DNA of 64,000 nt, taken from the NCBI GenBank assembly GCA_900315315.1, contig OMYT01000019.1, forward strand, positions 1 through 64,000, written 5' to 3'. The translations under genes and the position numbers were made by a program. The notes beneath the pieces are model-generated. The model did no database searches. It worked only from the letters and a program-made list of their open reading frames with translations, and had not been told where the DNA came from. The DNA comes from an uncultured Eubacteriales bacterium (GTDB taxonomy: Bacteria; Bacillota; Clostridia; Christensenellales; Aristaeellaceae). Shown here piece by piece: positions 44,582 to 61,135 of this stretch (positions are counted from its first letter, which is position 1; each line of letters begins with the position of its first letter).

Positions 44582-44689
44582 GACCGAAGGGGTCAAGGGG
44601 GGTTCGCAGCGCCCGGAAATAGAGCCAGTGGCTCTATTTCAGCGGAGAACGGGCGGCAGCCCCGGGCACTCGGAAAGCCCCCTTATTCA
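44582..44689 (-). repeat. Structured ~100-bp repeat, copy 1
   Basis: One of four copies. The central hairpin is GAAATAGAGCC (44616-44626), AGT, GGCTCTATTTC (44630-44640). It is flanked by conserved CGGGCGGCAGCCCCGGGC and GACCGAAGG blocks. It lies at the 3' end of the HAD gene, whose last ~18 codons and TAG stop are inside it, and between convergent genes. It shares the outer TGAATAAGGGGG end with copy 2. Confidence 0.9.
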
Positions 44690-45506
44690 TTTCCTCGATC
44701 ATTCTGCCGACCCCGTCCTCATCATTCCCCGGGGCGATCCGGTCAGCGGCGTCCTTTGCCGCCTGGACCCCGTTCTCCATCGCCACCCCGATTCCGGCCG
44801 TGCGGATCATGCTCAGGTCGTTGGAGCCGTCCCCGAAGGCGGCAGCCGCTTCCGTCCCGATCCCCAGATAATCGCATAAAGCCTGCAGCGCCGCCCCCTT
44901 GTTCGCCCGCCCGTCATTGATTTCGATGTTCCGGGCGATCGATGAGGTGACCGCCAGCTGCGGGAACCGCTCCGCCGTCTTTATCATCACGAACTCCTGG
45001 ATCTCTGCAGTTTCACAGAAAGCCTGGATTTTCTGTACGGCCTTTCCTTCTGTGCGGATGCGCTCCTTCAGATCCGGCACGGGCTTGCGCAGCGCCAGGA
45101 TCATCTTCAGGTAGATCGGGCTCGGCGCGTAGCGGTCAGCTTTCTTCAGCATCTCCGCCGTCATATAGGCCTGTCCGTCCTGATAGCAGTCATAGATTGC
45201 CGGAAAACCGTCCAGCCAGGTCATGACCTCCAGCGCCGTCTCCTGCGGAATCTCCGCACGGTACAGTATCCGGTCCTCTTCCCTGTCGTATACAGCCGCG
45301 CCGTTGGCCAGGATCAGATAGCGGATGAAGGAAAGATCCCGGATCTCTTCCGGAAGGCCGGTATAGATCCTCCCCGTAGCCGGCACGATGAAGATCCCCG
45401 CCTCCGCCGCTTTTTCCATGGCATTCCTGTTCCGTTCCGTCAGCCGCTTGTCCGTCGTCAGCAGCGTCCCGTCCAGATCCATCGCGATCAGTTGTATTTC
45501 ACCCAT
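44634..45506 (-). CDS. HAD-superfamily Cof-type sugar phosphatase
   Basis: A 290-residue haloacid dehalogenase-like hydrolase of the Cof/YbiV type (cap C2B). Motif I is MDLDGTLLTTD (9-19), motif II is PATGR, motif III includes the Lys in NKGAALQALCDY and motif IV is FGDGSNDLSMI. It dephosphorylates sugar phosphates or FMN-like compounds. The ATG follows GAGGG. The last residues (GAFRVPGAAARSPLK) are encoded by the structured repeat, which replaced or extended the native end; the family normally ends soon after the final helix. Confidence 0.9.
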   Translation of the reverse strand: MGEIQLIAMDLDGTLLTTDKRLTERNRNAMEKAAEAGIFIVPATGRIYTGLPEEIRDLSFIRYLILANGAAVYDREEDRILYRAEIPQETALEVMTWLDGFPAIYDCYQDGQAYMTAEMLKKADRYAPSPIYLKMILALRKPVPDLKERIRTEGKAVQKIQAFCETAEIQEFVMIKTAERFPQLAVTSSIARNIEINDGRANKGAALQALCDYLGIGTEAAAAFGDGSNDLSMIRTAGIGVAMENGVQAAKDAADRIAPGNDEDGVGRMIEEMNKGAFRVPGAAARSPLK

Positions 45507-45528
45507 AACCAGCCCTCAAAACCATTCC

Positions 45529-45632
45529 GACCGAAGGTCCAGGGGTTCGTCGCGCCCGGAAAACTGTCCAGTGGACAGTTTTCAGCAAAGAACGGGCGGC
45601 AGCCCCGGGCACTCGGAAAGCCCCCTTATTCA
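45529..45632 (-). repeat. Structured ~100-bp repeat, copy 2
   Basis: Central hairpin GAAAACTGTCC (45559-45569), AGT, GGACAGTTTTC (45573-45583), with the outer CGCCCG/CGGGCG helix around it. It starts at the TAA stop of the GH13 gene and ends 22 bases before the HAD start, so it is an intercistronic spacer on the minus strand. Confidence 0.9.
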
Positions 45633-47473
45633 AACCTGTGACACAACCACCTGAATCCTCCGGCCGGCACCTTCACCGCCCCGGCGTCTCTGACCGTCCC
45701 GTCCATCAGATCCGTGTATTCTTTCTCATCCCGCAGCCAGGCTGTCGCGTCCTCGCTTCCGAAGTTGAACAGGGCCAGGATCTGCTCTTTCCGGTAATAC
45801 CGGCCGATCCCCACGATGTGGTTGTTCCCCGTGTCCAGGATCCATGTATCCGCCTCCGTGTCAAAGGCGGCATGTTCCGCGCGCTGCGTTTCCAGTTTCC
45901 TGATCGCGGTGAACACACGCCCCTCCGGAGTATCTTCCCTTGTCCTCAGTTCGGCTTTGGTCCAATCCATGTTTCCGCGGTGCAGATACCGGCTGTCCTC
46001 CCGCTTCAGCGGATCGTCGTGGTATGCGTTGTCGTTTTCCTGGGCAATCTCGTCCCCGCTGTATAGCACCGGCACTCCGCTCAGCGTGAAGATGAACGCG
46101 TGCAGCATAATGTCCAGCCGGATCGCTTCCTCCATGGCCAGTTTGTCCCCGCTCTCCCGGGCGGACTCTATTCCGCACAGGGAGGCTGTCGTGCCGCACA
46201 GGCGCGCGTCCCCCAGCCGCGGGTCATCGTTGTACAGTTCGCCCCGTGCCGGACTGTCCGGCCATTTTCCCGTCAGGTAGTTGTTCAGGAACCGCTTATG
46301 CGGGATCTCCTCCTGACCGAACTGCCGTAGGAAATCATAGTCCAGTCCCCAGCCGATATCGTCGTGGCAGCGCAGATAGTTGAGGAACGTGTATGCCTTC
46401 GGCAGCGAGAATACCTGCTGCAGCTGATGCGTCAGCAGCCGCACATCCCGTGACGCCACCGTATGCCAGATTGTCGCCATCGTGGTTACGTTGTACAGCA
46501 GATGGCATTCCGGCCTCTCCACCGTCCCGAAGTAAGGCGCCACCTTGCTGGGCTCCATCACGACCTCGCCCAGCAGCAGCGTGCCGGGGCAGACGATTTC
46601 GCAGACAATCCGCATCATCCTCACCAGCGAATGCACCTGTCTCAGATTCCGGCAGGTTGTCCCCAGCGTTTTCCAGATATACGGCACTGCGTCCAGCCGG
46701 ATAATATCAATCCCGTTGTTGCACAGGAACAGCATGTTCTCCGTCATGTCGTTGAACACCGTGGGGTTGGCGTAGTTCAGATCCCACTGATAGGGATAGA
46801 AGGTCGTCATGACGATCTTTTGTGCTTCCTCGCACCAGGTAAAGTTCCCCGGCGCCGTGGTTGGAAACACTTGCGGCATCGTCTCGTTGTACCAGTTCGG
46901 AATACTCCAGTCATCGTAGAAGAAATACCGGTGCTGGAATTCCTCCTCCCCGGCCCGCGCCCGGCGCGCCCATTCATGGTCCTCGCTGGTGTGGTTCATC
47001 ACAAAGTCCAGGCAGAGCGCAATGCCGCGTTCATGGCAGTCCGCCGCCAGTTCCGCCAGGTCCTCCATCGTCCCCAGTTCCGGCTGAACCTTACGGAAAT
47101 CGCTCACCGCGTAGCCGCCGTCGCTGCGCCCCTCCGGACTTTCCAGCAGCGGCATCAGGTGCAGGTAATTGAGTCCGCATTCCGCGATGTAGTCAAGCTT
47201 TTTCCTGACGCCCTGCAGATTCCCCGCGAACGGCTTCACATACATCAGCATGCCGACCATCTCATGGCCCTTATACCAGTCCGGGCATTCTTCCCGGGCC
47301 CGGTCCATCATTTTCAGTTTTTCCGGCCTCTCCAGCCACATGCGATACAGCATCTCGGTAAAGTAGTCGTAGGCCCCCATATCATTGTGATACAGTTCGC
47401 AGTACAGCCATTTCAGCTCGTTCGCGTGCAAGCGGTACCGGATTGAATATTCTTTCTCCCACGTTTTGTTCAT
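45626..47473 (-). CDS. GH13 amylosucrase-like glucan/sucrose enzyme
   Basis: A 615-residue glycoside hydrolase family 13 protein close to amylosucrases (subfamily 4). Motifs: LDFVMNHTSEDHEW (155-168), nucleophile Asp261 in IIRLDAVPY, acid/base Glu303 in LLGEVV and HDDIGW (370-375). A C-terminal beta domain follows. No signal peptide. Amylosucrases make alpha-glucan from sucrose; some relatives are sucrose hydrolases. Start at ATG 47473, with GGAGGAGG upstream. Its last codon runs into the structured repeat copy 2. Confidence 0.88.
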   Translation of the reverse strand: MNKTWEKEYSIRYRLHANELKWLYCELYHNDMGAYDYFTEMLYRMWLERPEKLKMMDRAREECPDWYKGHEMVGMLMYVKPFAGNLQGVRKKLDYIAECGLNYLHLMPLLESPEGRSDGGYAVSDFRKVQPELGTMEDLAELAADCHERGIALCLDFVMNHTSEDHEWARRARAGEEEFQHRYFFYDDWSIPNWYNETMPQVFPTTAPGNFTWCEEAQKIVMTTFYPYQWDLNYANPTVFNDMTENMLFLCNNGIDIIRLDAVPYIWKTLGTTCRNLRQVHSLVRMMRIVCEIVCPGTLLLGEVVMEPSKVAPYFGTVERPECHLLYNVTTMATIWHTVASRDVRLLTHQLQQVFSLPKAYTFLNYLRCHDDIGWGLDYDFLRQFGQEEIPHKRFLNNYLTGKWPDSPARGELYNDDPRLGDARLCGTTASLCGIESARESGDKLAMEEAIRLDIMLHAFIFTLSGVPVLYSGDEIAQENDNAYHDDPLKREDSRYLHRGNMDWTKAELRTREDTPEGRVFTAIRKLETQRAEHAAFDTEADTWILDTGNNHIVGIGRYYRKEQILALFNFGSEDATAWLRDEKEYTDLMDGTVRDAGAVKVPAGGFRWLCHRFE

Positions 47474-47563
47474 GCTGTTCCTCCTCCTGCCCGTCCGTCG
47501 GAAAAGAAATGGATTCAAAAGCCGGTTCCCCGGCATATTTGTTTCATTCATTCTGTATATATG

Positions 47564-47593
47564 ATTGTATCATGAGTGTATCAGTCTTCGCAA
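47564..47593 (-). promoter_or_regulatory. Possible promoter for the GH13 gene
   Basis: On the minus strand, TTGCGA (47588-47593) and TACAAT (47564-47569) are 18 bp apart, overlapping the end of the CapA gene. A small hairpin GCCGG/CCGGC with TTTT (about 47518-47535) lies in the leader. Confidence 0.4.
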
Positions 47594-48693
47594 TACTTAA
47601 TGGTTGCCGACCCGTCCGGATTCCGAACGTCCGGGTCGGTTCCTGTCGTTTCCGCCATTTTCTTCAGCACCCGTTCCGCATCCTCTCCCGTCAGCAGGCA
47701 GGGGGAGTAATTATTGTGCCGTTTATCGCTGGTAATGCTGATCGGGTAAAACGTCAGTGCGATCTCCTTCAATTCTCCGTCCTCAAAGCGCAGTTCCGCC
47801 CGCACCACCAGCGCGTCGTTATCCTTCGCGAAAGTCGTCCCGCCGAAGGAGCAGTTACCGAGGCTGTAAACAACCGGCACGTCATCTTTCAGCACCAGGC
47901 CCTGCAGCACATGCGGATGGTGCCCGATCACCAGGCAGGAGCCGGCTTTCACTGCCCGCTCGACAATCTGCGCCTGATAATTGTCCGGCGGGCGGTAGCT
48001 GTATTCCGTCCCCGCGTGCATGACCGTGATCACCGCCGCGCAGCCGAGGTCTCTCAGTTTTTCCGCCTGCGCTGCAAAGCGCTTCGCCCGGTTTCCCGTC
48101 AGGGAATAGTTAACCCCGAGAAAACCGATCATCAGGCCTTCATCGCTCCGCCAGATCGCCGGCGCGTCCACACCGAACCAGCAGATTCCCGCCTCTTCCA
48201 GCGCTTTCTTTGTGTCCGCGTATCCTTCGTCCCCGTAGTCATGGGTATGGTTGTTCGCTACCGTCACGCATTCGATGCTGCCTTCCTTCAGGATCTGCGT
48301 GTTGGCCGTCGGTCCGATGAAGTTGAATTCCTTTTTCTCTTTTTTCAGTTTCCGGTCGCTCAGCACAACCTCCAGGTTCGCAACCGTCAGGTCGTCCGCT
48401 TCAGTCAGCTGCTTCAGGCCCCGGAAGGGAAAATCCATCCCGTTCTCCGCGATCCGGCTGGCGAAACTCAGGGCCTGCCCGGCCTTTTTCTCTTCTCCTC
48501 CGAGTGTGCAGTCCCCCAGAAAGGTCATCGTCACAGTGCCGGTATATTCGTCGTCCGGAAGTCCGAGCATCTCCGCGGAAACCTCATCCGTCACCGTATA
48601 CCAGTTCCCGGAAGCCAGACAAAAACACGGAATCATCATGAAAATCATGACCCAGGCTGCCATTTTTCTGAACCTCATCCGCTCTCCACTCAT
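47581..48693 (-). CDS. CapA-family poly-gamma-glutamate-type protein
   Basis: A 370-residue secreted or membrane-anchored protein of the CapA/PGA-cap metallophosphatase-like family. N-terminal hydrophobic segment AAWVMIFMMIPCFCLA; then FLGDCTLGG, NLEVVLSD, TVANNHTHDYGDEG, VMHAGTEY and IGHHPHVLQG carry the Asp/His residues of the family's metal site. The start is uncertain: ATG 48693 (GGAGAG ten bases upstream) or ATG 48678 (ribosome site very close), both in a heptamer-repeat region. CapA proteins take part in capsule or polyglutamate anchoring; a role here is inferred only. Confidence 0.85.
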   Translation of the reverse strand: MSGERMRFRKMAAWVMIFMMIPCFCLASGNWYTVTDEVSAEMLGLPDDEYTGTVTMTFLGDCTLGGEEKKAGQALSFASRIAENGMDFPFRGLKQLTEADDLTVANLEVVLSDRKLKKEKKEFNFIGPTANTQILKEGSIECVTVANNHTHDYGDEGYADTKKALEEAGICWFGVDAPAIWRSDEGLMIGFLGVNYSLTGNRAKRFAAQAEKLRDLGCAAVITVMHAGTEYSYRPPDNYQAQIVERAVKAGSCLVIGHHPHVLQGLVLKDDVPVVYSLGNCSFGGTTFAKDNDALVVRAELRFEDGELKEIALTFYPISITSDKRHNNYSPCLLTGEDAERVLKKMAETTGTDPDVRNPDGSATIKYCED

Positions 48694-48737
48694 CAGCTTT
48701 CTACTCTCCACTCTCCACTCTTCACTCTCCAGTCTCA
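48682..48737 (-). repeat. Heptamer (GAGTGGA-type) repeat, copy d
   Basis: Minus-strand GAGTGAAGAGTGGAGAGTGG and a further GAGTGGAGAG fill the gap between the YdcF-like stop and the CapA start and supply its ribosome site. Confidence 0.85.
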
Positions 48738-48745
48738 GCTACCCA

Positions 48746-50215
48746 CTAGCCCAGCGTGGCGGTAAGTATACTGAAGAACACAATCAGCAGAATCAGCATC
48801 ACCAGCTCCGTCTTCCATCGCTTCTGCAGCAGCCCGATCGTCTCCCGCATGAAGGCGTTCGGCCAGAACCACCATTTGGTTCTGCTGCCGAGTCCCTCCG
48901 CCCGCACGCCGGCTTCCGCCGCCCACAGGCCGCTGCGGAACACATGATAACTGGTCGTAGCAAAGGCGATCTTTCCGTCCGGCTGCATCTCCTCCACGAT
49001 TTTCCGGGAAAAAGCCATATTCTCAAGCGTCGTCCTGGACTGATCCTCCATCCGGATATACTCCTCCGGAATTCCCTGTTCCAGCAGATAGCGTTTCATC
49101 GCTTCCGCCTCGGGCATTACCTCGTCCTTCCCCTGCCCTCCGGAGGGGATCAGGATCGCCGTCCGGCCGTTTTCCTCCCGCTGTTTTTTCCAGAAGGCAA
49201 TGGCGCGGTCCACCCGCCCCCGCAGCAGCGGAGGCAGCGTTCCGTCCTTGCGGAAGCCGCACCCGAGAATAATGATGAAATCCTTGTCCGGTTCCGGAAT
49301 CATCTTCGGCGCCAGCAGGCCGCAGATCACCGCGCCTGCCAGCATACATTCAAGGTAGACAAATACCGTCGCGTAAACATTCTGGAAAACATTTTCCGCC
49401 CGTCCGACCCATTCCGGCCCGGGAAGATCCCGGTTAAGCAGCAGCCAGCCGATCACCTCACCGAGAATCATCGCAACACCGATCCCCAGGCCCAGTATGT
49501 TCTGGATCCGCGGCCGCTCGTGTCGCAGCAGCGCAATATTGCTGATGATCATCGCCAGGGCAAAGCACAGCACCAGCGGAGCCGTCAGCATCATAAACTG
49601 CCAGGGAGCCGACGCGATCGCCGAGTATGCGTTCATCATTGTAAAACCGACCGGGTTCACTATATGCCGGAGCGTCAGGTTCAGCATCACCACGCCGGTC
49701 ACCAGGGCAAAAATCGAAAACCCCGAGAAGTAGAGCGACATATAATCATAGAAGTCAGATCCCCTGATCTGCCGGAAGCTCCACGCCATGATCGCCCATA
49801 GCAGCAGGCTGAACACCGTGAAAGCGATCATCACCGCCGTGTCCCCGGTGAATCCGCCGGTGCTTGTATCATATACCGTTTTGTCCCGGCCGACCTTCAG
49901 TTCATGTTGCGCAACCACGTTTCCTTCCCGGTCCAGCACGTTCAGGGTGGTATCCCCCTTCTGCCCCGGGCGGATCGGCACCCGCAGATAGCCGTCCTTC
50001 ACCTGCGGCGTTCCTTCCAGGATCACTTCCTGTCCTTCCGCCTCCACCCGCAGTTCATCCGCCCGTTCAACAGCAGTCTCCGGCAGGGGGATCACCGCGT
50101 AATAGGTATTCTTCACCGTCAGGCGGCAGACTACACAGAACACCAGCAGGATTCCTGCGATGACCGCCATCTGTTTGACCGCCTGTCTCATAAGCCTTGT
50201 CCCCTTCCGCTCCAT
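48746..50215 (-). CDS. YdcF/DUF218 membrane protein (SanA-like)
   Basis: A 489-residue membrane protein. It has one N-terminal helix (AVIAGILLVFCVVCRL), an outer beta domain (about 40-110), then about five helices and a C-terminal DUF218 domain: IILGCGFRKDGTLPPLLRGRV, LIPSGGQGKDE, SEAMKRYLLEQG-like and TTSYHVFRSG, ending in one more helix. DUF218 proteins (YdcF, SanA) are linked to envelope barrier function. The start ATG 50215 has GGGGAG nearby; ATG 50191 is an alternative. Upstream is the helicase gene, with the heptamer repeat between. Confidence 0.82.
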   Translation of the reverse strand: MERKGTRLMRQAVKQMAVIAGILLVFCVVCRLTVKNTYYAVIPLPETAVERADELRVEAEGQEVILEGTPQVKDGYLRVPIRPGQKGDTTLNVLDREGNVVAQHELKVGRDKTVYDTSTGGFTGDTAVMIAFTVFSLLLWAIMAWSFRQIRGSDFYDYMSLYFSGFSIFALVTGVVMLNLTLRHIVNPVGFTMMNAYSAIASAPWQFMMLTAPLVLCFALAMIISNIALLRHERPRIQNILGLGIGVAMILGEVIGWLLLNRDLPGPEWVGRAENVFQNVYATVFVYLECMLAGAVICGLLAPKMIPEPDKDFIIILGCGFRKDGTLPPLLRGRVDRAIAFWKKQREENGRTAILIPSGGQGKDEVMPEAEAMKRYLLEQGIPEEYIRMEDQSRTTLENMAFSRKIVEEMQPDGKIAFATTSYHVFRSGLWAAEAGVRAEGLGSRTKWWFWPNAFMRETIGLLQKRWKTELVMLILLIVFFSILTATLG

Positions 50216-50238
50216 CTTCTCCCCCCGTGTGCATCCCG

Positions 50239-50268
50239 AGCTCTCCACTCTCCACTCTTCACTCTCTC
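50239..50268 (-). repeat. Heptamer (GAGTGGA-type) repeat, copy e
   Basis: Minus-strand GAGAGAGTGAAGAGTGGAGA and GTGGAGAG lie directly after the helicase TAA (50269) and 24 bases before the YdcF-like start. Confidence 0.85.
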
Positions 50269-52656
50269 TTACCGTCTCCACCTTCCGCTGCCGCGGCCGT
50301 TCCCGTGGCAGCTGTCGCACAGCCGGTACGGCCAGTTCCACGGCAGATGCCGCCGGCAGGAAGGGCAGGTCCGCTGCTGCAGCTTCTGGGTGGACAGGAT
50401 GTGCACGATCCCCCGGGAAATCAGATCCTTCCGTCGCTGGATCTCGTCCATCAGCTCCTCCGGTTCCGGCAGGAACAGCCGTGTATAGTTGTAGTACAGG
50501 TCACATCTCCGGTAGTCCGCCTCCATCGCGTCCAGCATCCGGATCGTGCAGCTCTCCGGGTCCAGGATTTCCGGCATCTCCGGAATCACGTCGATATGTT
50601 CTCCCCGGCACTCGGCATGGTACATTGCCTTCCATCGGCCCAGCAGGTCGGGATCCTTTTCGTCGAAAGGAATGCAGATAAACCGGTACAGCAGCTGCCG
50701 GTCGGTTTTCGGCGTTTCCATCATCTCCGCCAGTTCCGCCATCCGCACCGTCGACGCCTTTGAGAAACACCCTTTGTCCTGCATCCGCAGCCACTGATCC
50801 AGGATCTGCGTCAGCGGCAGGGGGATGCCCAGCAGGGAATCCGGAAACCCGATCACGCCCTCGACCAGCGGCAGCAGCGGCCGGGCCAGCGCCCGCGCGA
50901 CCTCTTTCCGGAATCCGAAGGCGTTCACATAGCCGATCTCGTATTTTCCGTACCGCCCCGCCCGTCCGGCGATCTGCTTGATTTCCGCATCCGTCAGCAG
51001 TCTGACCATGTCCCCGTCAAACTTTTCATTTTCCAGAAACACGACCCGCTGGATCGGCAGGTTCATTCCCATGGCGATCGCATCCGTCGAAACGACCACC
51101 TCCGTCTCGCCCTTCATGAAGCGGTCCGCCTGGTTCCGCCGCACGTCCGGCGGCAGTGCCCCGTAAATCAGGGAAACCTTGTATCCCCGGGTCTTCAGTT
51201 CCGCTGCTACCGCATGCACCCGCGCCTTGGAAAAAACGATCAGTGCGTCTCCCGGCTGCACGGAGTTCGGAAACTGGAATCCGACCGTCTCGACCTCCAG
51301 CGGCGTCATCCGCTCATGCCGGATCACCGTCAGCTCGTCCCCGCATTCTTCAATAATCCTGGTCAGCAGCTGCTCCGCGTCCGGCGACGCGCAGGCGTGG
51401 ATTTCCTCCGCGCACAATCCGAGAATGGCCGCCGTCCAGGCGCCGCCCCGGTCCCGGTCCGCGATCATCTGACATTCGTCGATCACTGCCACGTCATACC
51501 GGGTTTTCAGGTCAGCCATTTCCACCGTCGATGACTGGACGCGGCTGAAGGGAACCCGGATCTGCTCCTCTCCTGTCACCAGCGAGCAGGGAACATCGTC
51601 CAGATTCAGTGCCTCAAACTGCTCCGCAGCAAGCAGCCGCAGCGGCCCGAGATAGACCCCGCACTCCGCGCCGTGCAGGCGCTGCACGCCCTCGTAGGTC
51701 TTTCCGGAGTTAGTCGGCCCCAGGTGTAGATAGAAATGACGTTTCATCTGCCGGGCCAGCGGATAGAGGTCCCGGTAATGCTCGGGGATCGCATCCAGCA
51801 GCGCCGCGCGAATCTGCTTCTCCCGCTGCCAGACTGCATCTGCTTCCTTCTGCAGGCGGATCAGTCCCGGGTTCTTTTCCAGCAGCCGCCGGATCCGTTC
51901 CCGGGAAAACTTCTTTTCCAGCGCATTCAGGATCATCCGGCCGCTCCGCTCCGCCTCCCGGCGCACCGCGTTGGCCACGGTCTCGCCCGATGGCAGTTTC
52001 ACGTTCCGGCAGGCCGCGAGCTCCGGCATCGCCTTCCCCGCTTCATTGCGCAGGAAGGATCCCAGGGATCCCGGCTGAAACGCCCGGTTCACCGCCTTGT
52101 GCGTCAGCCCGCCCGGGAAACCGGTTTCCATCACCCGGCGGATCACAAAGCGTTCCCCCTCCGGATCCCCGAGCCGCGCCGCCTGGTCCCCGGTCCGCAG
52201 CCACAGAACCACCCGGTTCTCCGCCCGGTTGGTCAACTGTCCGATGTTGTCGTCAAAAAATTTCCGAAGTTCTCCGTCCCGGACGATTCTGCGGGCTTCA
52301 TAAGCCTTCTCCAGTGAAACCCGGCTCTTCTCCACCGTCCGCAGAAACGCGAGGTCAATCTTCCTGCCGGCCTTCCCTTCGGCTTCGATCAGCTTTTCCA
52401 GACGATCAAATTCCGCCCGGTCCCCGCTGAGAACCAGTTCGCCCCGCAGCAGGCCCTGCCATACCCGGTCCCGCCGCTGCAGCTGCCGCAGCGTGCTCTG
52501 AAACGCCTCGCTGTTCAGGTATTCCGCTTTTTCCGCCGCGGACATCGCGCGGGTAATCACCCGTGTCTTGTTCAGCGCGTGCTGATACAGCCACCGTTCC
52601 CGCTCGGGCAGAACAGCCTGAATATATGCTTCCAGCGCCCTGCTCTCCCGTTTCAT
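50269..52656 (-). CDS. Suv3-like superfamily II RNA helicase with C-terminal zinc motif
   Basis: A 795-residue SF2 helicase resembling mitochondrial Suv3. Walker A is GPTNSGKTY (about 313-321), motif II DECQM, motif V TDAIAMGMNLP and motif VI QIAGRAGRYG. A ~300-residue N-terminal helical region precedes the helicase core and is not recognised. The end has CPSCRRHLPWNWPYRLCDSC, a four-cysteine zinc ribbon, and a basic tail. Suv3 helicases work with exoribonucleases in RNA decay. The promoter at 52690-52718 and GGGGAGG before the ATG support expression. Confidence 0.88.
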   Translation of the reverse strand: MKRESRALEAYIQAVLPERERWLYQHALNKTRVITRAMSAAEKAEYLNSEAFQSTLRQLQRRDRVWQGLLRGELVLSGDRAEFDRLEKLIEAEGKAGRKIDLAFLRTVEKSRVSLEKAYEARRIVRDGELRKFFDDNIGQLTNRAENRVVLWLRTGDQAARLGDPEGERFVIRRVMETGFPGGLTHKAVNRAFQPGSLGSFLRNEAGKAMPELAACRNVKLPSGETVANAVRREAERSGRMILNALEKKFSRERIRRLLEKNPGLIRLQKEADAVWQREKQIRAALLDAIPEHYRDLYPLARQMKRHFYLHLGPTNSGKTYEGVQRLHGAECGVYLGPLRLLAAEQFEALNLDDVPCSLVTGEEQIRVPFSRVQSSTVEMADLKTRYDVAVIDECQMIADRDRGGAWTAAILGLCAEEIHACASPDAEQLLTRIIEECGDELTVIRHERMTPLEVETVGFQFPNSVQPGDALIVFSKARVHAVAAELKTRGYKVSLIYGALPPDVRRNQADRFMKGETEVVVSTDAIAMGMNLPIQRVVFLENEKFDGDMVRLLTDAEIKQIAGRAGRYGKYEIGYVNAFGFRKEVARALARPLLPLVEGVIGFPDSLLGIPLPLTQILDQWLRMQDKGCFSKASTVRMAELAEMMETPKTDRQLLYRFICIPFDEKDPDLLGRWKAMYHAECRGEHIDVIPEMPEILDPESCTIRMLDAMEADYRRCDLYYNYTRLFLPEPEELMDEIQRRKDLISRGIVHILSTQKLQQRTCPSCRRHLPWNWPYRLCDSCHGNGRGSGRWRR

Positions 52657-53505: not shown

Positions 53506-54315
53506 TTATTCCTTCTGCCGGGTTTTCCGACCCTGGATGATCATGGACAGCGGGAAACCGCTGTGATCGATCGCAGCAAAACCGCCGCTGATATCGCTGT
53601 CAAACTCCCGAAGATCGGTAATCACCATTCCGTTGCAGCACATCCCGGATATAATTTCGGACATCGAATGGGTAAAGTCAGTGAAGGTTTTGGAATGATA
53701 GCTTTTCTGCGTCATATAATACATTCCTCCGTTACCGGTCCACTCGTGCTCGAAATATGAAAACCGGCATTCCTTCCTGTGCTCCGGATCGAACTCTTCA
53801 TCGCCTTCAGAAGCAAGCATATTCGTGCAGGGATGCTGTTCATTGATTAAAATGACAGCACCCGGTTTCATACACTTTGCGACAACGGCAAAAAAGCGGT
53901 TCAGGTCATCAAACCAGCAGAGCGCGCCGATCGTAATGATCACAATATCAAATTGTTCCTTATACCGGTCATCAATATCATATACGTTTACAGCTTCAAA
54001 CACGCAGGGCAGGCCCAGCTCCTTTGCTTTTTCATTGGCAAAGGCCACCTGGTTTTCAACAATATCAAAACCGATCCCTTTCGCTGCATTTCCGCTTTTC
54101 ACAAGGGAAAGCAGTTCGCGTCCGTTATTGCAGCAGAACTGGCCGATTACCGTCCCCTCTGCGTGTAATTTCCGCAGGGCATCCACCGTTTCTTTGTTGA
54201 AAAAAGCGTAGTCCTCCTTCTGAATGCGGTCCGTTATATCGGCTCCCCAGGAAGCATGCCTCTGATCAAAAGCTTCCTCCCACGCCGCTTTATTTCCTTC
54301 GATATACTTTTCCAT
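53506..54315 (-). CDS. SAM-dependent methyltransferase
   Basis: A 269-residue class I methyltransferase. The AdoMet-binding motif is QFCCNNGRELLSLVKSG with GIGFDIVENQ after it, then IVIITIGALCWFDDLNRFF and an NEQHP segment. Its relatives methylate small molecules. GAGGAAG precedes the ATG. It is a single gene convergent with the nitroreductase gene; a 150-base A+T-rich gap without gene separates it from the flavodoxin-like remnant. Substrate unknown. Confidence 0.85.
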   Translation of the reverse strand: MEKYIEGNKAAWEEAFDQRHASWGADITDRIQKEDYAFFNKETVDALRKLHAEGTVIGQFCCNNGRELLSLVKSGNAAKGIGFDIVENQVAFANEKAKELGLPCVFEAVNVYDIDDRYKEQFDIVIITIGALCWFDDLNRFFAVVAKCMKPGAVILINEQHPCTNMLASEGDEEFDPEHRKECRFSYFEHEWTGNGGMYYMTQKSYHSKTFTDFTHSMSEIISGMCCNGMVITDLREFDSDISGGFAAIDHSGFPLSMIIQGRKTRQKE

Positions 54316-54465
54316 GAAATCTTCCTCTCTGTTTCACAGCAGCCCAATCACTATTAATAATACGATATCAGCCATGTCTCTGCCGTCTTTGCTGTGTATG
54401 TCTTGCTTCAGCAAATTGTGAGCTATTGATTCTATGAATTCCGGTTTTTCTCTGCATGCGTTTTT

Positions 54466-54747
54466 TTATTTTTCAATAATATGATTGATCGTGAGATTTA
54501 TCTGCCCGGCAAGATCCGGATCCTCCTGAACGGAAACGCTGTTCGTATTGAGTGATTGTACGCAATCCAAAGCAGGGTCAAAACTTGCGTTCAGAAAACG
54601 AAAAGCTGTTTTTGCGATGCTGATCGCTGGATTTGGAGAACCATCTCCACCACCTGTCAGTATGAGTATACCCTTTTTTGCCTTCATTTCTTTGGAGCTT
54701 TTCAGGAAAAAATGATTGCTCCAGATAAAATTCAGCCTGCTGATTTC
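54466..54747 (-). pseudogene. Flavodoxin/FMN-reductase C-terminal remnant
   Basis: The frame encodes the C-terminal part of an NAD(P)H-dependent FMN reductase/flavodoxin-like protein: FIWSNHFFLKSSKEM, then KAKKGILILTGGGDGSPNPA and a tail to IIEK. The N-terminal FMN-binding half is missing. The frame begins directly after the TAA of the VWA gene with no start codon or ribosome site; an ATG at 54687 opens only a 73-residue piece. This is a deletion junction, so the remnant is probably not functional. Confidence 0.65.
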
Positions 54748-54750
54748 ATG

Positions 54751-57390
54751 TTACATCCTCTTCTTATTCTTCATGCTCTGCCACAGCACATCCGCGGCGT
54801 CCGGCGCCTGTTCCGCCGGCTTGGTTTTTTTCTCCGGCTTTTCCCTGACCGCTTTCTGTTGCGGTTTATCTTCCTTCTCTGCCGCCTTTTCCGGCGCCTC
54901 GCGGAACAGATCCAACCGCCGCTGGGCCACATCAAACACGAACAGCAGCATCGCCAGACCCAGCAGGATCGGGCTCAGGTCCGTCCGTTTCCGGGCGGCG
55001 GTATCCGGGAACGACAGCAGCCCCTGCGGGGTTTCGCAGACTGCGCCGCCGCTTTCGGCCGCCAGTTTTTCCAGCGCGCCTGAGTCCTCCCGCCGCTGGT
55101 CGTATTCGCCCGTCCAGCCGATCACCGCGCCGCTCTCGACCGTTGTTACTTCTCTCCCGTTTCCATCCTCAGCCGTGATCCGCACCGCGTACGCGCCGGC
55201 CGCGGAGGTATCCGTTTTCCCCTCAAACCGGGTATCGGAAACACGCTCCAGCCTGACCATATCCTGTGTTCCGTCCGGCCGGATCACCGTCGCGACAGCA
55301 TGCGCCGCCTCTTCCGGCACCTCTGCTTCCCAGATGATCTGCCCCTCGCTCAGGGACAGTTCTCCCGCACCGCTCCTCTCCGGCAGGATGAAGGAGAGAA
55401 TCCCGGCGAAAAACTCCGCCGCACTGTCCCAGTTCAGGAAGGCTTCGCTCCATCCGCCCTGCACGTCGCTTGTCCAGCAGACGACCCGGCCCGCGCCGTA
55501 CTGCCACCAGGCCAGCACCGGATCCTTCCGGTCGCTGCACAGGGACACTGTCGCCAGCGGTTTTTCCGTGGCTGCCAGATAGCCGCCCAGCTCCGGGAAA
55601 CCGGGAAAATCCGTCATCGAGCTGTCCGTCACCGCCGGCGTGAAGACGCGATTCTGCACATATGCGCCGGAAATCATCATCGTTTCCTTGGTAAAAATCC
55701 TCGGCAGGCTGTCAAAGGGTCCCGCCGCGTACATCCGGCCGTTCCCGGCTTCCGCCATGCGGGTCAGGCCGCTGTAGTCGGCCCCGTCCCCCACGGCGAC
55801 CGTCGTCACTGTGATTCCCGCTTCCGCCATCTGCCGGATTACGTCGAGGTATCCGGTATCCCCGGCTTCCCCGTCCGTCAGGAAAATCACATGACGGTAA
55901 TGGGCGTTCGAGTTCTTCAGCGCGTTGTAGGCCATCAGCAGGGGGGAATAGAATGCCGTACCGCCGCCGGAGCGGATCGTGCCGATCTGCTCCTGCATTG
56001 CCGCCACGTCTGTCACCGGGCTCAGCGGCACCACCCATTTCGCCGCATCGTCAAAAGCGATCACCCCGGCCTGATCCCGCTCGTCCAGAATTTCCAGCGC
56101 GCTGCATGCAGCTTCCCGCGCCAGTGCCAGCCGGGTGACGCCGTATTCGCCCTCCAGCATGGAACCGCTCTTGTCGATTGCCAGCACCAGCGCCGTCGTC
56201 GGCAGATCCATCCGGTTCCGCACATCGATCGTCACCGGAAGCATATTCTCCAGCGCGCTTCCCCGGTATCCGCCCAGGGCGTAGCTCTGGTCCCCGCCGA
56301 ACACGGCCACCCCGACGCCCAGTTCCTTCGCGGCGCTGTCCAGCGCCGCCGTTTGATCGTCGTTTATCTGCCCCGCGTCCACGTTTACCAGCGCCACCGC
56401 GTGCCAGGCCAGCAGGTCCGCCGCCTTCTCCGGCAGCATGCCCGCCGGCAGCGTCCGCACCTTCATTCCTGCCGCTTCCAGCATGTTTTTCAGTTGTGTT
56501 CCGGCGCCGCTCTGCCCCTCGGCGATCAGAACCGACGGTTCGCCCGCGATCACCGTATAAGCAGCCCCGCCGTCATTGGCGGATACCGCGTCCCCCGGCA
56601 GGATCACTTTGGCTTCCACGGTGCTCACGCCCGTGCCTGCCGCCGTCTGTTCAAAGGCAAAGGTGTTTTCCCCGCGCCGCAGGGTCACTTCCCGGCTCTC
56701 GGTCTCCCCCTGGTTCCGCGTCAGCAGCAGTGTCGCCTTTCCGGCGGCGTTGGCGTGCACCGTCACCCGGGTCGTATATTTCTGTCCTGTATAGAGAGAG
56801 GCCGGCACCGTCACAGCCGTTACCTGGGCATCCGCCGCGTTCCGCGCGCCGGTTTTCAGCACGTTCACCGGCAGCCCGCCCGCTGCCTGAAGCAGGTTCT
56901 CCTCCCCGGTCACCACGCCGTCGCTGATCACCGCGATTCCGCCGTTGGAATCCTGCGGCAGCAGCGCGCCCGCCATCTGCAGCGCTCCGTACAGGTCGCT
57001 GCCCCCGCGGTCCGCCTGTATTTCGGAAGCGTCAAACGCAGTCTCCTGTCCCGGGGAGCGCAGCACCGTCGAGTCCCCGCCGAAGGCAATCACGCCGGTC
57101 TTCCGTTCGCCGGCTTCCGCCAGCGCTTCCTTTGCCAGCCGCAGCGTTTCCTCTTCGTTCACCGATGCGGAAACGTCGATCAGCAGGAAGGCCGTCCGGT
57201 CCGGGCTTTTGGTCAGCAATCCCGTGCCGGCCAGCGCCAGCGCCGCCAGAACAATCAGGATATACCGCAGCGCATGGGAAATCCGTTCCTTCCGGGAGCG
57301 GCTTTTTCTGAAATGGCAGATCAGCCACACGACCAGTGCACACACAGGGATCGCCAGCAGCCTCATCGGGTGCAGAAACTCAACCGACAT
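54751..57390 (-). CDS. Large membrane VWA-domain protein (BatA/BatB-like)
   Basis: An 879-residue membrane protein. Two N-terminal helices (LAIPVCALVVWLICHF; YILIVLAALALAGTGLL), a first VWA-like domain with LIDVSASVNEEE (MIDAS), a glutamine amidotransferase-like beta domain and a second VWA domain with AIDKSGSM and FLTDGEAGDTG; one C-terminal helix (ILLGLAMLLFVFDVA) and a Lys/Glu-rich tail. It shares 11 bp with the previous VWA gene. With DUF58 and MoxR it forms a conserved envelope-linked operon whose exact task is unknown. Confidence 0.85.
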   Translation of the reverse strand: MSVEFLHPMRLLAIPVCALVVWLICHFRKSRSRKERISHALRYILIVLAALALAGTGLLTKSPDRTAFLLIDVSASVNEEETLRLAKEALAEAGERKTGVIAFGGDSTVLRSPGQETAFDASEIQADRGGSDLYGALQMAGALLPQDSNGGIAVISDGVVTGEENLLQAAGGLPVNVLKTGARNAADAQVTAVTVPASLYTGQKYTTRVTVHANAAGKATLLLTRNQGETESREVTLRRGENTFAFEQTAAGTGVSTVEAKVILPGDAVSANDGGAAYTVIAGEPSVLIAEGQSGAGTQLKNMLEAAGMKVRTLPAGMLPEKAADLLAWHAVALVNVDAGQINDDQTAALDSAAKELGVGVAVFGGDQSYALGGYRGSALENMLPVTIDVRNRMDLPTTALVLAIDKSGSMLEGEYGVTRLALAREAACSALEILDERDQAGVIAFDDAAKWVVPLSPVTDVAAMQEQIGTIRSGGGTAFYSPLLMAYNALKNSNAHYRHVIFLTDGEAGDTGYLDVIRQMAEAGITVTTVAVGDGADYSGLTRMAEAGNGRMYAAGPFDSLPRIFTKETMMISGAYVQNRVFTPAVTDSSMTDFPGFPELGGYLAATEKPLATVSLCSDRKDPVLAWWQYGAGRVVCWTSDVQGGWSEAFLNWDSAAEFFAGILSFILPERSGAGELSLSEGQIIWEAEVPEEAAHAVATVIRPDGTQDMVRLERVSDTRFEGKTDTSAAGAYAVRITAEDGNGREVTTVESGAVIGWTGEYDQRREDSGALEKLAAESGGAVCETPQGLLSFPDTAARKRTDLSPILLGLAMLLFVFDVAQRRLDLFREAPEKAAEKEDKPQQKAVREKPEKKTKPAEQAPDAADVLWQSMKNKKRM

Positions 57391-58999
57391 ACCGGCTCAC
57401 CCCCATTTCCGCCGCCAGCAGCAGCAGGAACAGCAGCAGCAGAATATCCTTCAGCTCCCGTCCCTGTTCGTTTGTCCTTTCGTTCTGTTCCGCTTCAGCG
57501 CTCGGCGCGGTGTCCCGCGTGTCGCTCTCGGAAAGCGGCATAACCTTCGCCGCCGTTTCTTCCGCCGCCTGTTCTTCTTTCAGCAGCGTGTTCAGGATGT
57601 TCTGGACCAGCACCGGGAAATCATATTTCAGCGGCAGGTTCGTCTCGTGCAGATCAAAACCGAGCACCGCCGTATCCTCTGTCCATACGATCACCGGATC
57701 CTCGCCCAGCCTGACCGCTGTCCGGCCGCCGCTGATCGGGCGCCAGCTGCGGAAGAATACGTTTTTCATCGTAACCCCGGCTGTCAGCGGGCTCTCCAGC
57801 ACCTCCGCCGCCGGGCTCTCTGCCGTCCCGGCTGAAGTCGAGGTCTCCCCATCTTCCCAGCCGAAAACTCCGAAGCCCGTCGCCGCGGAATCATATCCTT
57901 CCTCCGGTTTCCGCGTGGTCAGGATCAGCGGATCGATCCCCAGGATATACAGGTCCGCCTCCGTGGAGGCCAGCGCATCCGCCTCCGTCCGCATCACGGT
58001 CAGGTTCGGCCGTACCTTCAGCGCGCTTTCCAGGAAAACGTTGTCCTCTGTTACCGCGACCCGCAGGCCGTTGTCGTGTTTCACGGCCGCTTCCGCCATG
58101 TTGTCGGCCTCCAGCGCATCCTTTTCCCGGATTTTCACCCGCACCCGTTCTGTTTCTTCCGGAATGTCAAAGCTGACTCCCGCCGTTTCCCCCGCGGGAA
58201 TCGTGATCTCGCTTGCCCCGCACAGGGTCCCGTCCGCCTCGCAGGCCAGGGTAACCGTACAGTCCTTTCCGAAGTTCGCCGCCCGCGCGTAGGCTTTGCC
58301 GTTTTCCGCCGTCAGCGAATAGACCGCCCGGTTCTCCGCCGATTCTCCCACATTGATGATCGAAACAGTGCTTCCGCCTTTCGTATGCAGATCCGACAGC
58401 CGCAGCGCGTCCGAAAAGATCGTAATCCGGAGGGCTTTCCGGTCACCTTCCGAGTCTCCTTCGGTCTGTCCCAATGCCCTGGCCAGCGTCAATGCCCGGT
58501 CGATATCCGCCCCGCCCCGTCCGCAGGTCATGGAGGCAATCACTTTTTCCGCTTCCTCCCGGTTTCCGTTCAGGCTCAGCCGCTGCACCTCATCCCCGGC
58601 GGTGATCATGGTGATCTCCTCCTCCGCCGGCAGTTCGCCGATCCGCTTCAGTGCTTCCTCTTTCGCCGCCTCCAGCCGGCTTCTTCCGCCGCTTTCCGCC
58701 TGCATGCTGCCGGAAATATCAAAGATGAAAACGCTTCTCCCGGCCGTGCCGCCCGGCAGCGCGGGACGCATCAGCGCCAGGGCCAGCGTCAGCGCCGCCA
58801 GCACCTGCAGCGGCAGCAGCAGGTTTTTCATCAGCCGCTGGAAAGGCCGGTTTGCCGCATAGTCACGCACGCTCTTCCGCCAGAGAAAGACAGACGGAAC
58901 CTGCCGCGGCAGAAATCTCCTGCGCAGCAGATACAGCACCACAATCATCACCGGCGCTGCCAGCATCCATGCAAATCCCGGGCTCAGAAACCTGATCAT
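57380..58999 (-). CDS. BatA-like VWA-domain membrane protein
   Basis: A 539-residue protein starting with the aerotolerance-regulator type N-terminus (FLSPGFAWMLAAPVMIVVLY; WRKSVRDYAANRPFQRLMKN), two helices and a VWA domain with the MIDAS FIFDISGSMQ. A long beta-rich part and a C-terminal helix (ILLLLFLLLLAAEMGV) follow. Start at ATG 58999, with AAGGAG upstream. Between it and the DUF58 gene lies copy 3 of the structured repeat. Confidence 0.87.
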   Translation of the reverse strand: MIRFLSPGFAWMLAAPVMIVVLYLLRRRFLPRQVPSVFLWRKSVRDYAANRPFQRLMKNLLLPLQVLAALTLALALMRPALPGGTAGRSVFIFDISGSMQAESGGRSRLEAAKEEALKRIGELPAEEEITMITAGDEVQRLSLNGNREEAEKVIASMTCGRGGADIDRALTLARALGQTEGDSEGDRKALRITIFSDALRLSDLHTKGGSTVSIINVGESAENRAVYSLTAENGKAYARAANFGKDCTVTLACEADGTLCGASEITIPAGETAGVSFDIPEETERVRVKIREKDALEADNMAEAAVKHDNGLRVAVTEDNVFLESALKVRPNLTVMRTEADALASTEADLYILGIDPLILTTRKPEEGYDSAATGFGVFGWEDGETSTSAGTAESPAAEVLESPLTAGVTMKNVFFRSWRPISGGRTAVRLGEDPVIVWTEDTAVLGFDLHETNLPLKYDFPVLVQNILNTLLKEEQAAEETAAKVMPLSESDTRDTAPSAEAEQNERTNEQGRELKDILLLLFLLLLAAEMGVSRYVG

Positions 59000-59040
59000 G
59001 TTTCTCCTTATATCATCCTGCGCCACACACATACATGCGG

Positions 59041-59136
59041 GCCGAAGGTCCAGGGGTTCCGCACGCCCGGAAAACGGGCCAGTGTGCCCGTTTTCAGTAA
59101 GGAACGGGCGGCAGCCCCGGGCACTCGGACAGCCCT
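59041..59136 (-). repeat. Structured ~100-bp repeat, copy 3
   Basis: Central hairpin GAAAACGGGC (59070-59079) and GCCCGTTTTC (59086-59095). It sits between the DUF58 stop (59162) and the BatA-like ribosome site. A further CGCGCCTGCGGGCGCG-like hairpin on the minus strand (59140-59155) follows the DUF58 stop. Confidence 0.9.
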
Positions 59137-59161
59137 GGTCGCGCCCGCAGGCGCGAAATCC

Positions 59162-60013
59162 CTATATCATCCTGCTGTTTGACAACAGCTGTATAAATCT
59201 CTTCTCAAACGGTTCACTGCCGTCCAGCAGCATATACGGCGCCTCGCACCTAGAGCAGTTCTCCCGTACCGCTTTCAGGAAATCACCCAACGCCTCCCGG
59301 TAATTCTCCAGCGCGTTCCGGTCCGCCAGCAGATCGATCTGCTCCCCGCTCTCGCTGTCCGTCAGCTTCAGCGCCCCTTCCATCTCCGGCCGCAGCTCCC
59401 CGCCGCTCATCACCTGGATCACCGCCGTCTCCTGCCGCATATAGCGCAGATAGTCCAGCGCCTCTTTCAGCGCGTCCTCGGTATATCCGTCGGTAATCAG
59501 GAAACTCAATCCTTTCCGCAGCCCTTCGGTTCGCTTCACCGCATCGGTAAGGGTTCCCTCTTTGCCGTCCGGAGCACAGCTGTCCAGAAACATGTTCAGC
59601 CTCGCAAATGGCGCCCGGCCGGACAGCTGCGGGAATCCCGCGGCTTTCCCGTTCTTCAGCACATGCAGCTGAAGACGGTCTCCCCCCGTCAATGCCAGAT
59701 AGCCGACTGCTTCCGCGGCACATCGCGCCGCGTCCCATTTGGCCCCCATGGAGGCGCTTGCATCCAGCAGAATCGTCACCTGGCTCTCCTGCTCCTCCAT
59801 GAACAGCTTCATATACAGCCGGTCAAACCGTGCCAGCGCATTCCAGTCCAGCCGGCGGATATCGTCGCCCGGAATGTATTCCCGGTAGTCGGAAAACTCC
59901 GCTGAGGATCCGGTCTGCCGGGACCGCCGGCTTCCGCCCGCGCCGCCCTGCGCCCGTCCCCTCATCGCCAGCCGAAGCGCATCCAGCCTGGCTAAAAAAG
60001 CATCTGTTAACAT
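59162..60013 (-). CDS. DUF58-domain protein
   Basis: A 283-residue DUF58 protein: a basic N-terminus, the family motif FSDYREYIPGDDIRRLDWNA (about 40-59) and a VWA-like part with LLDASASMG and FLITDGYTED. DUF58 proteins are partners of MoxR ATPases. GGAG lies nine bases before the ATG, within the MoxR end, so it is coupled to MoxR. It sits in the usual order MoxR, DUF58, VWA, VWA. Confidence 0.9.
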   Translation of the reverse strand: MLTDAFLARLDALRLAMRGRAQGGAGGSRRSRQTGSSAEFSDYREYIPGDDIRRLDWNALARFDRLYMKLFMEEQESQVTILLDASASMGAKWDAARCAAEAVGYLALTGGDRLQLHVLKNGKAAGFPQLSGRAPFARLNMFLDSCAPDGKEGTLTDAVKRTEGLRKGLSFLITDGYTEDALKEALDYLRYMRQETAVIQVMSGGELRPEMEGALKLTDSESGEQIDLLADRNALENYREALGDFLKAVRENCSRCEAPYMLLDGSEPFEKRFIQLLSNSRMI

Positions 60014-60016
60014 TCC

Positions 60017-61003
60017 TTACTTCTCCGAAACAGAAGAGATGATCTCCTGCAAGAGCGTCTCTCCGTCCTTCCCGTCCGAGATCGCCTCAAAATTGAGCGC
60101 GATCCGGTGCCTCAGGCATGCCGGCGCCGCTGCCCGAATATCCTCAAACGCCACATTGAACCGTCCCTTCGCCAGCGCGCGCACCCGCGACACCGACAGC
60201 AGAGCCTGCGCCGCCCGGGGGCTCGCCCCGAACCGCAGATACTTCTTCGTCACCTCCGGTGCGTCCGCGTTCTCCGGATGGGTTGCCAGCACCAGCCGCA
60301 GCGCATATTCCTGCACGCCGGAAGCCACCGGCACACTCCGCGCGGCCGCCCGCATGGCCAGCAGTTCTTCCGCTCCGATCACCTGCTGCGCCTCCGCCCC
60401 GCCGTCCTTCACGGTCAGGTCCACGATGGCGCTCAGTTCCTCCAGTGTCGGGAACGGCACCAGCACCTTGAACAGGAACCTGTCCAGCTGCGCCTCCGGC
60501 AGGGGATAGGTTCCCTCCTGTTCCACCGGGTTCTGCGTTGCCAGCACAAAGTAGGGTTCCGGCAGTTTCCTCGTTTCCCCGGCCACGGTCACCGCATGCT
60601 CCTGCATTGCTTCCAGCAGCGCTGCCTGCGTCTTGGGCGTCGCGCGGTTGATCTCATCCGCCAGCACGATGGAAGAAAACAGCGGTCCCTCCTGGAAGCG
60701 GAAGGTATTTCCTTCCTCCGTCCGCACCAGGATATTCGTCCCGGTAATATCCGCCGGCATCAGGTCCGGCGTAAACTGGATCCGGGAAAAAGGCAGGTTC
60801 AGCACCTTCCCCAGCACCCGCACCAGATGGGTCTTTCCCAGCCCGGGCACACCTTCCAGCAGCACATTGCCCCCGGCGATCACCGCCATCAGCAGGTGTT
60901 CCACCACCTCCTGCTGACCGATCATTTCCTTGGCGATCTCCGCCCTGATCCGTTCATACTGCTCCGCGAATTTCTCCGCCCCGCTTCTGCTCTGTTCGCT
61001 CAT
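60017..61003 (-). CDS. MoxR-family AAA+ ATPase
   Basis: A 328-residue AAA+ ATPase of the MoxR type. Walker A is EGVPGLGKTH, Walker B LADEINR, sensor 1 ATQNP; the C-terminal lid has RFGASPRAAQALL. MoxR ATPases assemble or insert cofactors into complexes with VWA proteins. Start at ATG 61003, seven bases after GGAGG. Copy 4 of the structured repeat lies between it and the gene before it. Confidence 0.92.
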   Translation of the reverse strand: MSEQSRSGAEKFAEQYERIRAEIAKEMIGQQEVVEHLLMAVIAGGNVLLEGVPGLGKTHLVRVLGKVLNLPFSRIQFTPDLMPADITGTNILVRTEEGNTFRFQEGPLFSSIVLADEINRATPKTQAALLEAMQEHAVTVAGETRKLPEPYFVLATQNPVEQEGTYPLPEAQLDRFLFKVLVPFPTLEELSAIVDLTVKDGGAEAQQVIGAEELLAMRAAARSVPVASGVQEYALRLVLATHPENADAPEVTKKYLRFGASPRAAQALLSVSRVRALAKGRFNVAFEDIRAAAPACLRHRIALNFEAISDGKDGETLLQEIISSVSEK

Positions 61004-61036
61004 GAATCTACCTCCACATATAAATACCGGCATTCT

Positions 61037-61135
61037 GGCCGAAGGTCCAGGGGTTCCGCACGCCCGGAAAACGGGCCAGTGTGCCCGTTTTCAGTAAGGA
61101 ACGGGCGGCAGCCCCGGGCACTCGGAAAGCCCTGG
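61037..61135 (-). repeat. Structured ~100-bp repeat, copy 4
   Basis: Nearly identical to copy 3, with the same GAAAACGGGC/GCCCGTTTTC hairpin. It supplies the last ~15 codons (to PGLPPVPY) and TGA stop of the 61091 gene and ends about 15 bases before the MoxR ribosome site. Confidence 0.9.

Follow-up and report, generated by a model that had tools for sequence, protein, structure and literature searches.

How repeats shorter than 100 nt spread without any visible gene of their own is an old open question. Here we consider four repeats of about 100 nt in a 64,000-nt stretch of DNA (positions 1 to 64,000 of contig OMYT01000019.1, assembly GCA_900315315.1; hereafter the window) from an uncultured Eubacteriales bacterium of the family Aristaeellaceae. 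They apparently represent a small mobile DNA hairpin inside another small hairpin repeat, with many dozens of copies in the genome. The nearest described case appears, by analogy, to be the SDRs of Nostoc, which Elhai et al. in 2008 reportedly described as very small (unit of 21–27 nt), hairpin-forming and covarying, and as lying inside other repeats and inside their own copies; movement through an RNA intermediate is said to have been proposed for them. SDR-like features seen here are a small hairpin with compensatory changes, presence or absence between relatives, and nesting in other repeats, whereas the present elements belong to another phylum, have a unit of 60–61 nt, are oriented by GC skew, and nest in the loops of several host families. 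SDRs are also named in PMC3116915.

The BOX, RUP and SPRITE repeats of Streptococcus pneumoniae are described in PMC3049150 as hairpin-forming, modular in the case of BOX, and inserted into one another. That source also reports that pneumococcal repeats are over-represented between convergent genes, that SPRITE lies near gene 3' ends, that the repeats can disrupt genes or form reading frames, and that their leading-strand shares are 60.8, 60.9 and 63.3%. Our elements are likewise hairpin-forming, modular and mutually inserted; compared by architecture only, they differ from BOX in that boxA, boxB and boxC stand there in series, whereas the modules here lie inside each other's loops. REPs are defined in PMC2817692 and PMC3733652 by a tag together with a linked RAYT (REP-associated tyrosine transposase). 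Like REPs and REPINs (PMC3116915 and PMC2817692), the present repeats are apparently mobile extragenic palindromes with many copies and paired arms. They have, however, no unpaired GT(A/G)G or CGTC tag, their ends being CCGAAGG...AAAGCCC (outer) and TTCG...AGCCC (inner), and in contrast to REPINs they form no inverted doublets (the right-end motif is same-oriented within contigs in 124/128 cases) and have no linked RAYT. CGTC-tagged REPs, described in PMC3733652 as palindromic repeats without a dedicated transposase, are similar in that last respect but differ in the tag; the CCGTCCC repeats found beside RAYT-like genes of this genus resemble them, by motif only.

This genus makes the question of spread testable with respect to strand, loop and enzyme, as it offers dozens of similar copies, empty sites and closed genomes; moreover, host repeats of several unrelated kinds share an inner unit of near-constant length, and one species shows a strong strand bias.

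A hairpin unit inside a hairpin repeat

Inspection of the sequence placed all four copies within a few bases of where the initial annotation had put them, in one orientation and with the arms it had read. Each element of about 100 nt is a composite, in which an inner unit of 60–61 nt (59–61 among the matches), built as TTCGnnGCGCCCG-central hairpin-nnnAGAACGGGCGGCAGCCC, sits in the loop of an outer mini-hairpin, in the slot between GGGG and the GGAAAG loop. The outer mini-element, of about 35–40 nt, reads CCGAAGG-arm-GGGG-CGATCGGAAAG-CCCC-arm' (loop including GGAAAG) and is also dispersed as singles; it has complementary arms, such as TTTAAGGGGG and CCCCCTTA, GCGCGAGGG and CCCTCGC, or TCCAGGG and CCCTGG. 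Of the flanking blocks that had been called conserved, the right one turned out to belong partly to the inner unit (...GGGCGGCAGCCC) and partly to the outer mini-element (GGGCACTCGGAAAGCCC). The copies and the small repeats adjoining them are as follows.

44584..44684, plus strand: copy 1, whole composite; outer mini-element CCGAAGGGGTCAAGGGGG ... CACTCGGAAAGCCCCCTT, whose loop holds the inner 60-nt unit
44603..44662, plus strand: copy 1, inner 60-nt unit; central arms GAAATAGAGCC/GGCTCTATTTC within CGCCCG/CGGGCG
45531..45627, plus strand: copy 2, whole composite; TCCAGGGG ... CCCCCTT; right edge overlaps the stop codon of gene 45626-47551 (minus strand)
45546..45605, plus strand: copy 2, inner 60-nt unit; arms GAAAACTGTCC/GGACAGTTTTC
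59009..59021, plus strand: 13-nt direct repeat TATATCATCCTGC, left of insertion 3; one similar stretch at the empty site of genome G062
59042..59138, plus strand: copy 3, whole composite; TCCAGGG ... CCCTGG
59057..59117, plus strand: copy 3, inner 61-nt unit; arms GAAAACGGGC/GCCCGTTTTC
59139..59156, plus strand: small hairpin TCGCGCCCGCAGGCGCGA appended to copy 3; it follows many CCCTGG-type copies, with variant arms GCGGC/GCCGC elsewhere
59163..59175, plus strand: direct repeat TATATCATCCTGC, right of insertion 3
61039..61135, plus strand: copy 4, whole composite; TCCAGGG ... CCCTGG; encodes the last 14 residues of a minus-strand gene
61054..61114, plus strand: copy 4, inner 61-nt unit

With up to three mismatches allowed, a 17-base core matched the window five times (the four copies exactly, and one unrelated place with three mismatches) where 0.63 matches were expected, and 0/100 shuffles reached five. 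In the whole assembly (4.26 Mb in 197 contigs, 89% complete), a 25-base core at the same tolerance was found at 40 places and its reversed control at none, and the mini-element core GCGATCGGAAAGCCC, with one mismatch allowed, at 187 places (control 0). A covariance-model search of the genome and its relatives, which the initial annotation had proposed, places the four elements among at least 94 matches in their own genome; the model was built from 30 own copies, and 150 of 2820 first-look candidates were scored there, so 94 may be a lower bound. Under stricter filters than those used for the own genome, matches occurred in 22/36 congeneric relatives and in 0/24 genomes of the same order from other families, leaving the own genome as the richest in copies in this survey. 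At a tolerance of three mismatches, the CTGTCC-type hairpin string occurs 78 times in the own genome and gives a single three-mismatch match in 1/390 other genomes of the class, a search that could miss other types and diverged relatives because it used one central-hairpin type only. Rfam 15 gave no match at the elements, either for the window at gathering level (one match, elsewhere) or for five loci at E-values up to 5 (one sub-threshold match, elsewhere), and no description of these repeats was found in the literature searched, whose coverage omits most subscription journals. The element looks like a new, lineage-specific sort of very small mobile element.

The initial annotation had further proposed that the central arms vary yet stay complementary. 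Looking genome-wide for arms that often fail to pair and for a lack of covariation, we found instead that the arms pair and covary. In an alignment of 30 copies (freed of duplicates and taken from the 30 loci that cover the 40 25-base-core places), 300/300 cells of the central helix are paired, with double-sided changes in 6/10 pairs; the covariation score was reached by 0/500 shuffles and the number of pairs with double-sided change by 15/500, whereas the count of further pair types was not above shuffles (419/500 reach it). The outer helix, anticipated as a third layer, is 91.7% paired with double-sided changes in 3/6 pairs. The middle helix CGCCCG/CGGGCG, read earlier as the pair closing the hairpin, is kept (97.2% paired) but shows no double-sided change, and is therefore conserved rather than covarying. 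Across 89 own-genome matches, in an alignment fitted to the covariance model, 890 central-helix cells were scorable, two of them unpaired and four wobble, with 14 different 5' arms. Among exact 60-mers of the own genome and relatives (66 distinct copies, 19 arm sequences), 724/726 cells pair, against a mean of 578.5 and a maximum of 599 in 500 shuffles. The regular expression behind these 60-mers, used also for the relatives' hosts and the junction counts below, constrains some positions beyond the central hairpin and does not capture the TTCCGC/CGGGC and TTTCGC/CGAGCC types, to which window copies 3 and 4 belong; the 89-copy alignment includes both and agrees with the 60-mer picture.

We conclude, with strong support, that the hairpin itself is maintained, whether through selection or through copying; covariation in a repeat, even when near-perfect, does not alone prove a functional RNA. 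An alternative arrangement (CCGA with TCGG, GGGGTT with AGCCCC) pairs in 96.1% of cells, its extra helices lacking double-sided change, and may be a competing or pseudoknot-like fold. Outer-arm type is associated with central-hairpin type (0.78 versus 0.48 bits, 0/2000 shuffles, 65 copies), yet each of the larger arm types is combined with at least two central types, so that modules both travel together and mix.

Host repeats and empty sites

A shared-end search of 54 own loci gave 97 matches, some spanning two neighbours, and recovered mini-elements alone as well as nested forms. Hosts, and the per-copy orientations given further below, were examined for 81 of 99 own-genome matches, once repeat entries from loci that overlap and matches scoring under about 61 bits had been set aside: 63 lie in a mini-element, six in a TCATCC repeat, three in a GGCGCCAGTGG hairpin and two in a CTTGAGGGG hairpin, while seven are unassigned, five of which resemble degenerate mini-elements by eye. 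The inner unit also interrupts TCATCC-type repeats, the CTTGAGGGG hairpin repeat and others. Among 52 inner-unit matches in relatives (at least one of them, L248:616, spurious), 15 hosts were TCATCC repeats, seven of CAGTGG/CGGTGG type, four mini-element-like and 26 other, so that non-mini hosts are commoner than the mini-element in the relatives' loci fetched. Nesting extends further: a GC-rich module occupies the inner-unit slot, or lies inside the unit, in some copies, a GGCGCCAGTGGCGCC hairpin can hold the inner unit in its own loop, and in one relative (locus L087) the loop at the tip of the central hairpin harbours an extra module. Another dispersed family that hosts the inner unit, the TGTCATCC(C/T)GA repeats (loci L136, L137, L138 and L141, and loci of relatives), numbers 27 in 498 kb of own loci and is, among recognised hosts, the most frequent in the relatives' loci fetched.

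The junctions of 49 copies not recognised as mini-hosted are regular, with G at position -1 in 49/49, at -2 in 48/49 and at +2 in 48/49. Words common to both flanks (for example TGAGG/TGAGG and AGAGG/GAGAGG) are longer than when partners are shuffled (3.57 compared with 3.10, 0/500).

Presence of the composites differs between this genome and its relatives. Window copies 3 and 4 are absent in 6/6 relatives examined (G062, G017, G064, G002, G005 and G016), a set selected by match among the 41 genomes searched; insertion 3, consisting of copy 3 and a short left flank, is bracketed in the window by the 13-nt direct repeats TATATCATCCTGC. The copy 2 site of G062 is taken up by 2.8 kb that contain one mini motif but no inner unit, and for copy 1 no relative had both flanks for comparison. 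A second locus of 20 kb with seven elements (L100) offered six comparable sites in loci of 13 relatives, or 26 site-relative pairs; the composite occurs in 0/26, and neither inner unit nor mini motif in 24/26. A single inner-motif match in G068 at 8027 was set aside because it was judged to lie in flanking coding sequence; the gap at that site, of 31 bases, could not accommodate the unit. Although single sites cannot tell gain from loss, gain is favoured by the absence of the composites from every comparable relative. Unrelated repeats occupy L100 sites in G002 and others. At the site of L100:17988, different species (L202 in G066, L195 in G008, L196 in G002) carry different repeats at one gene 3' end, as if such gene ends were recurrent insertion sites.

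Strand orientation and candidate modes of movement

Within contigs of the own genome, where gene bases are 75.5% coherent, the right-end motif is coherent in 124/128 cases, as given above, and no contig has mini-elements on both strands among the 100 places listed of 187. Element direction opposes GC skew in 24/26 contigs, and so do 72/78 of all scorable copies and 59/61 scorable mini-hosted ones; skew from short contigs is uncertain because it was measured on fetched stretches. In contig C168 skew sign and element orientation switch together: a minus copy lies where skew is positive, and two plus copies lie elsewhere on the contig, where it is negative. Among 37 copies without minus/minus neighbours, 30 follow skew, six do not and one is in a flat stretch, and where both neighbouring genes run in the unusual direction 9/13 copies still follow it. 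The position 3' of a gene, noted in the initial annotation, is true of all four window copies but is not the best predictor of element orientation. Transcription-linked orientation was rejected as the main rule, as skew is followed in 30/36 scorable copies without both neighbours on the usual strand.

We favour, at a probability of roughly 0.62, the reading that these are non-autonomous mobile hairpins, inserted strand-specifically and nesting in one another's loops. At the outer level, the mini-element of about 35–40 nt would spread as singles; the inner unit would insert after GG(G) with a direct repeat of 3–5 nt, in the mini-element loop or in unrelated hairpin repeats, and further modules could lodge inside it. 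Insertion would be coupled to one replication strand: with CCGAAGG read on the C-rich strand, the GGGGGCTTTCC strand would belong to the lagging-strand template. With such single-strand movement, loops may be targeted because they are single-stranded in the lagging-strand template, or may appear favoured because loop insertions alone preserve the hairpin; similarly, arms might stay complementary because the unit must fold for copying, or because repair templated by the hairpin itself keeps palindromes free of mismatches. New C-termini, 3'-end hairpins and other effects on genes would then be by-products, some possibly co-opted. A more specific proposal, which we advance only tentatively, is that the 60-nt hairpin moves as a unit in its own right, recognising hairpin loops extruded on the lagging-strand template and inserting there, that the foldable strand required for copying or integration keeps the arms complementary, and that neither a RAYT nor a host-genus reverse transcriptase is needed. 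If so, unrelated palindromic repeats would grow into nested structures, and arm sequence would drift while pairing stays.

Several observations weigh against mobile, strand-specific hairpins. No mover was found, and the RAYT-like genes that exist in relatives lie beside other repeats. Genes track the same axis as the skew, so that element direction also opposes the gene majority in 22/26 contigs. The strand rule is broken by 2/61 mini-hosted and 3/6 TCATCC-hosted own copies and is weaker, by eye, in closed or near-closed relatives (10/15 scorable copies in G002, 9/10 in G035), in both of which many copies sit in other hosts. The gene ending at the element's right has its stop codon at most 13 nt away or overlapping in 32/46 cases, against 4/16 on the left (Fisher p = 0.003; 65/81 copies, those with both ends found by motif), an asymmetry for which one-strand insertion alone does not account; TTA stops completed by the element's TT edge, and gene ends encoded by the element, may account for part of it. 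Part of the direct-repeat signal is target preference, because the repeats are short and G-rich. Two of the 26 L100 pairs hold family members at the same site, namely an inner unit inside a different repeat (G008) and two mini-elements carrying another module (G066). Finally, RVT_1 matches, found in 14/45 genomes including one in the own genome (C168), are missing from closed or near-closed G002, G023 and G035, which carry 18, 14 and 11 element matches. A reverse transcriptase as obligatory partner is accordingly not supported by these three copy-bearing genomes, which speak mildly against movement via an RNA intermediate.

In a REP/REPIN system, a Y1 transposase (RAYT) would bind the hairpin as single-stranded DNA and move it, which would suit a mostly extragenic hairpin with the strand bias expected of single-strand transposition. 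Y1_Tnp matches do occur in 28/45 congeneric genomes, and the four Y1 proteins tested had as best match the NCBI REP-associated tyrosine transposase model, at 68–74 bits and so below its 80-bit cut-off. In the 89% complete assembly of the own genome, the richest in copies of those searched, no RAYT-like gene was nevertheless found, just an IS200-type TnpA whose frame is broken, accompanied by a TnpB-like frame, and a TnpA fragment at a contig end. Among 18 Y1 loci of relatives, none contains the inner unit and 17 contain other short palindromic motifs of GGGACGG/CCGTCCC or CAGTCCC type; the locus lacking these by motif (L274) has visible repeats of another kind. The mini left-end motif CCGAAGG(G/T), of eight bases, lies somewhere in 8/18 of these loci and the right-end motif in 1/15 checked. 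Since there is also no GT(A/G)G head and no linkage to the inner unit, RAYT (TnpA-REP) was rejected as mover and we regard this route as quite unlikely; the earlier label of REP-like intercistronic element is loosely right (dispersed, mostly extragenic, palindromic), but its form as a TnpA-REP substrate failed the tests made. The RAYT-like Y1 genes of relatives, mostly beside GGGACGG/CCGTCCC- or CAGTCCC-type palindromes (loci L270–L284, L286, L287 and L289), constitute a separate REP-like system. Locus L148 (G000 contig C49) holds a degraded IS605-type element, in which TnpA is split over two frames with a slight overlap; the TnpB-like frame that comes after them scores below the cut-off of the TnpB model.

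If selection on RNA pairing maintained the element as a transcribed 3' structure, such as a terminator, an mRNA stabiliser or a processing signal, this would explain the near-perfect covariation, the position just after stop codons, the minus-strand genes preceding all four window copies, and the opposition to the gene majority. We nonetheless hold this reading to be unlikely: the 30/37 copies that follow skew without a minus/minus arrangement, the relatives' orthologous gene ends without elements and the lack of an Rfam match at the elements all count against it, and four wobble and two mismatched cells among 890 are probably fewer intermediates than stepwise compensation predicts. An mRNA stabiliser as primary reason for the arrangement is accordingly weakened, as orientation follows skew and relatives lack elements at the same gene ends. 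Replication template switching with palindrome-templated correction, requiring no dedicated enzyme, would fit the almost complete lack of imperfect arms and the replication-strand orientation; near-constant unit length and boundaries, and an inner unit shared by several unrelated hosts, make it very unlikely. Ordinary miniature inverted-repeat transposable elements, derived from a DDE insertion sequence and moved in trans, would fit the short direct repeats at junctions, the lack of coding capacity and the many copies. Yet no terminal inverted repeat was seen beyond GGGTT/AGCCC (a parent insertion sequence was not searched for), and DDE insertion predicts neither replication-strand orientation nor nesting in loops, so that this origin seems improbable.

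Gene ends and minor features of the window

Gene positions come from a simple codon-score caller trained on the own genome rather than from an annotation. With these calls, each of the four copies lies at the 3' end of a minus-strand gene, in keeping with the initial annotation; copy 1 lies between convergent genes and copies 2–4 between tandem genes. Two genes read part of their C-terminus from a copy.

44634..45506, minus strand: Cof-type HAD hydrolase gene; last ~16 residues (KGAFRVPGAAARSPLK*) read from copy 1
61091..62428, minus strand: gene with recoded C-terminus, ending ...QWVNDPGLSECPGLPPVPY; five relatives end ...QWVKDYYSLLTDQR or similar

The family match of the Cof-type HAD hydrolase spans residues 6–270 of 290. 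At copy 4, the altered gene end is ...DPGLSECPGLPPVPY here, compared with ...DYYSLLTDQR or similar in five relatives.

Short tandem-like tracts occupy intergenic gaps at 48697-48743 and 50241-50273 of the window (CACTCTCCACTCTTCACTC) and in a relative (locus L172, AATTCAAAATTCATAATT). At 12480-12699 on the minus strand lies a group II intron RNA match (RF02005, 123 bits), a copy that seems to be without its own reverse transcriptase, because the sole RVT_1 match of the genome is on another contig (C168).

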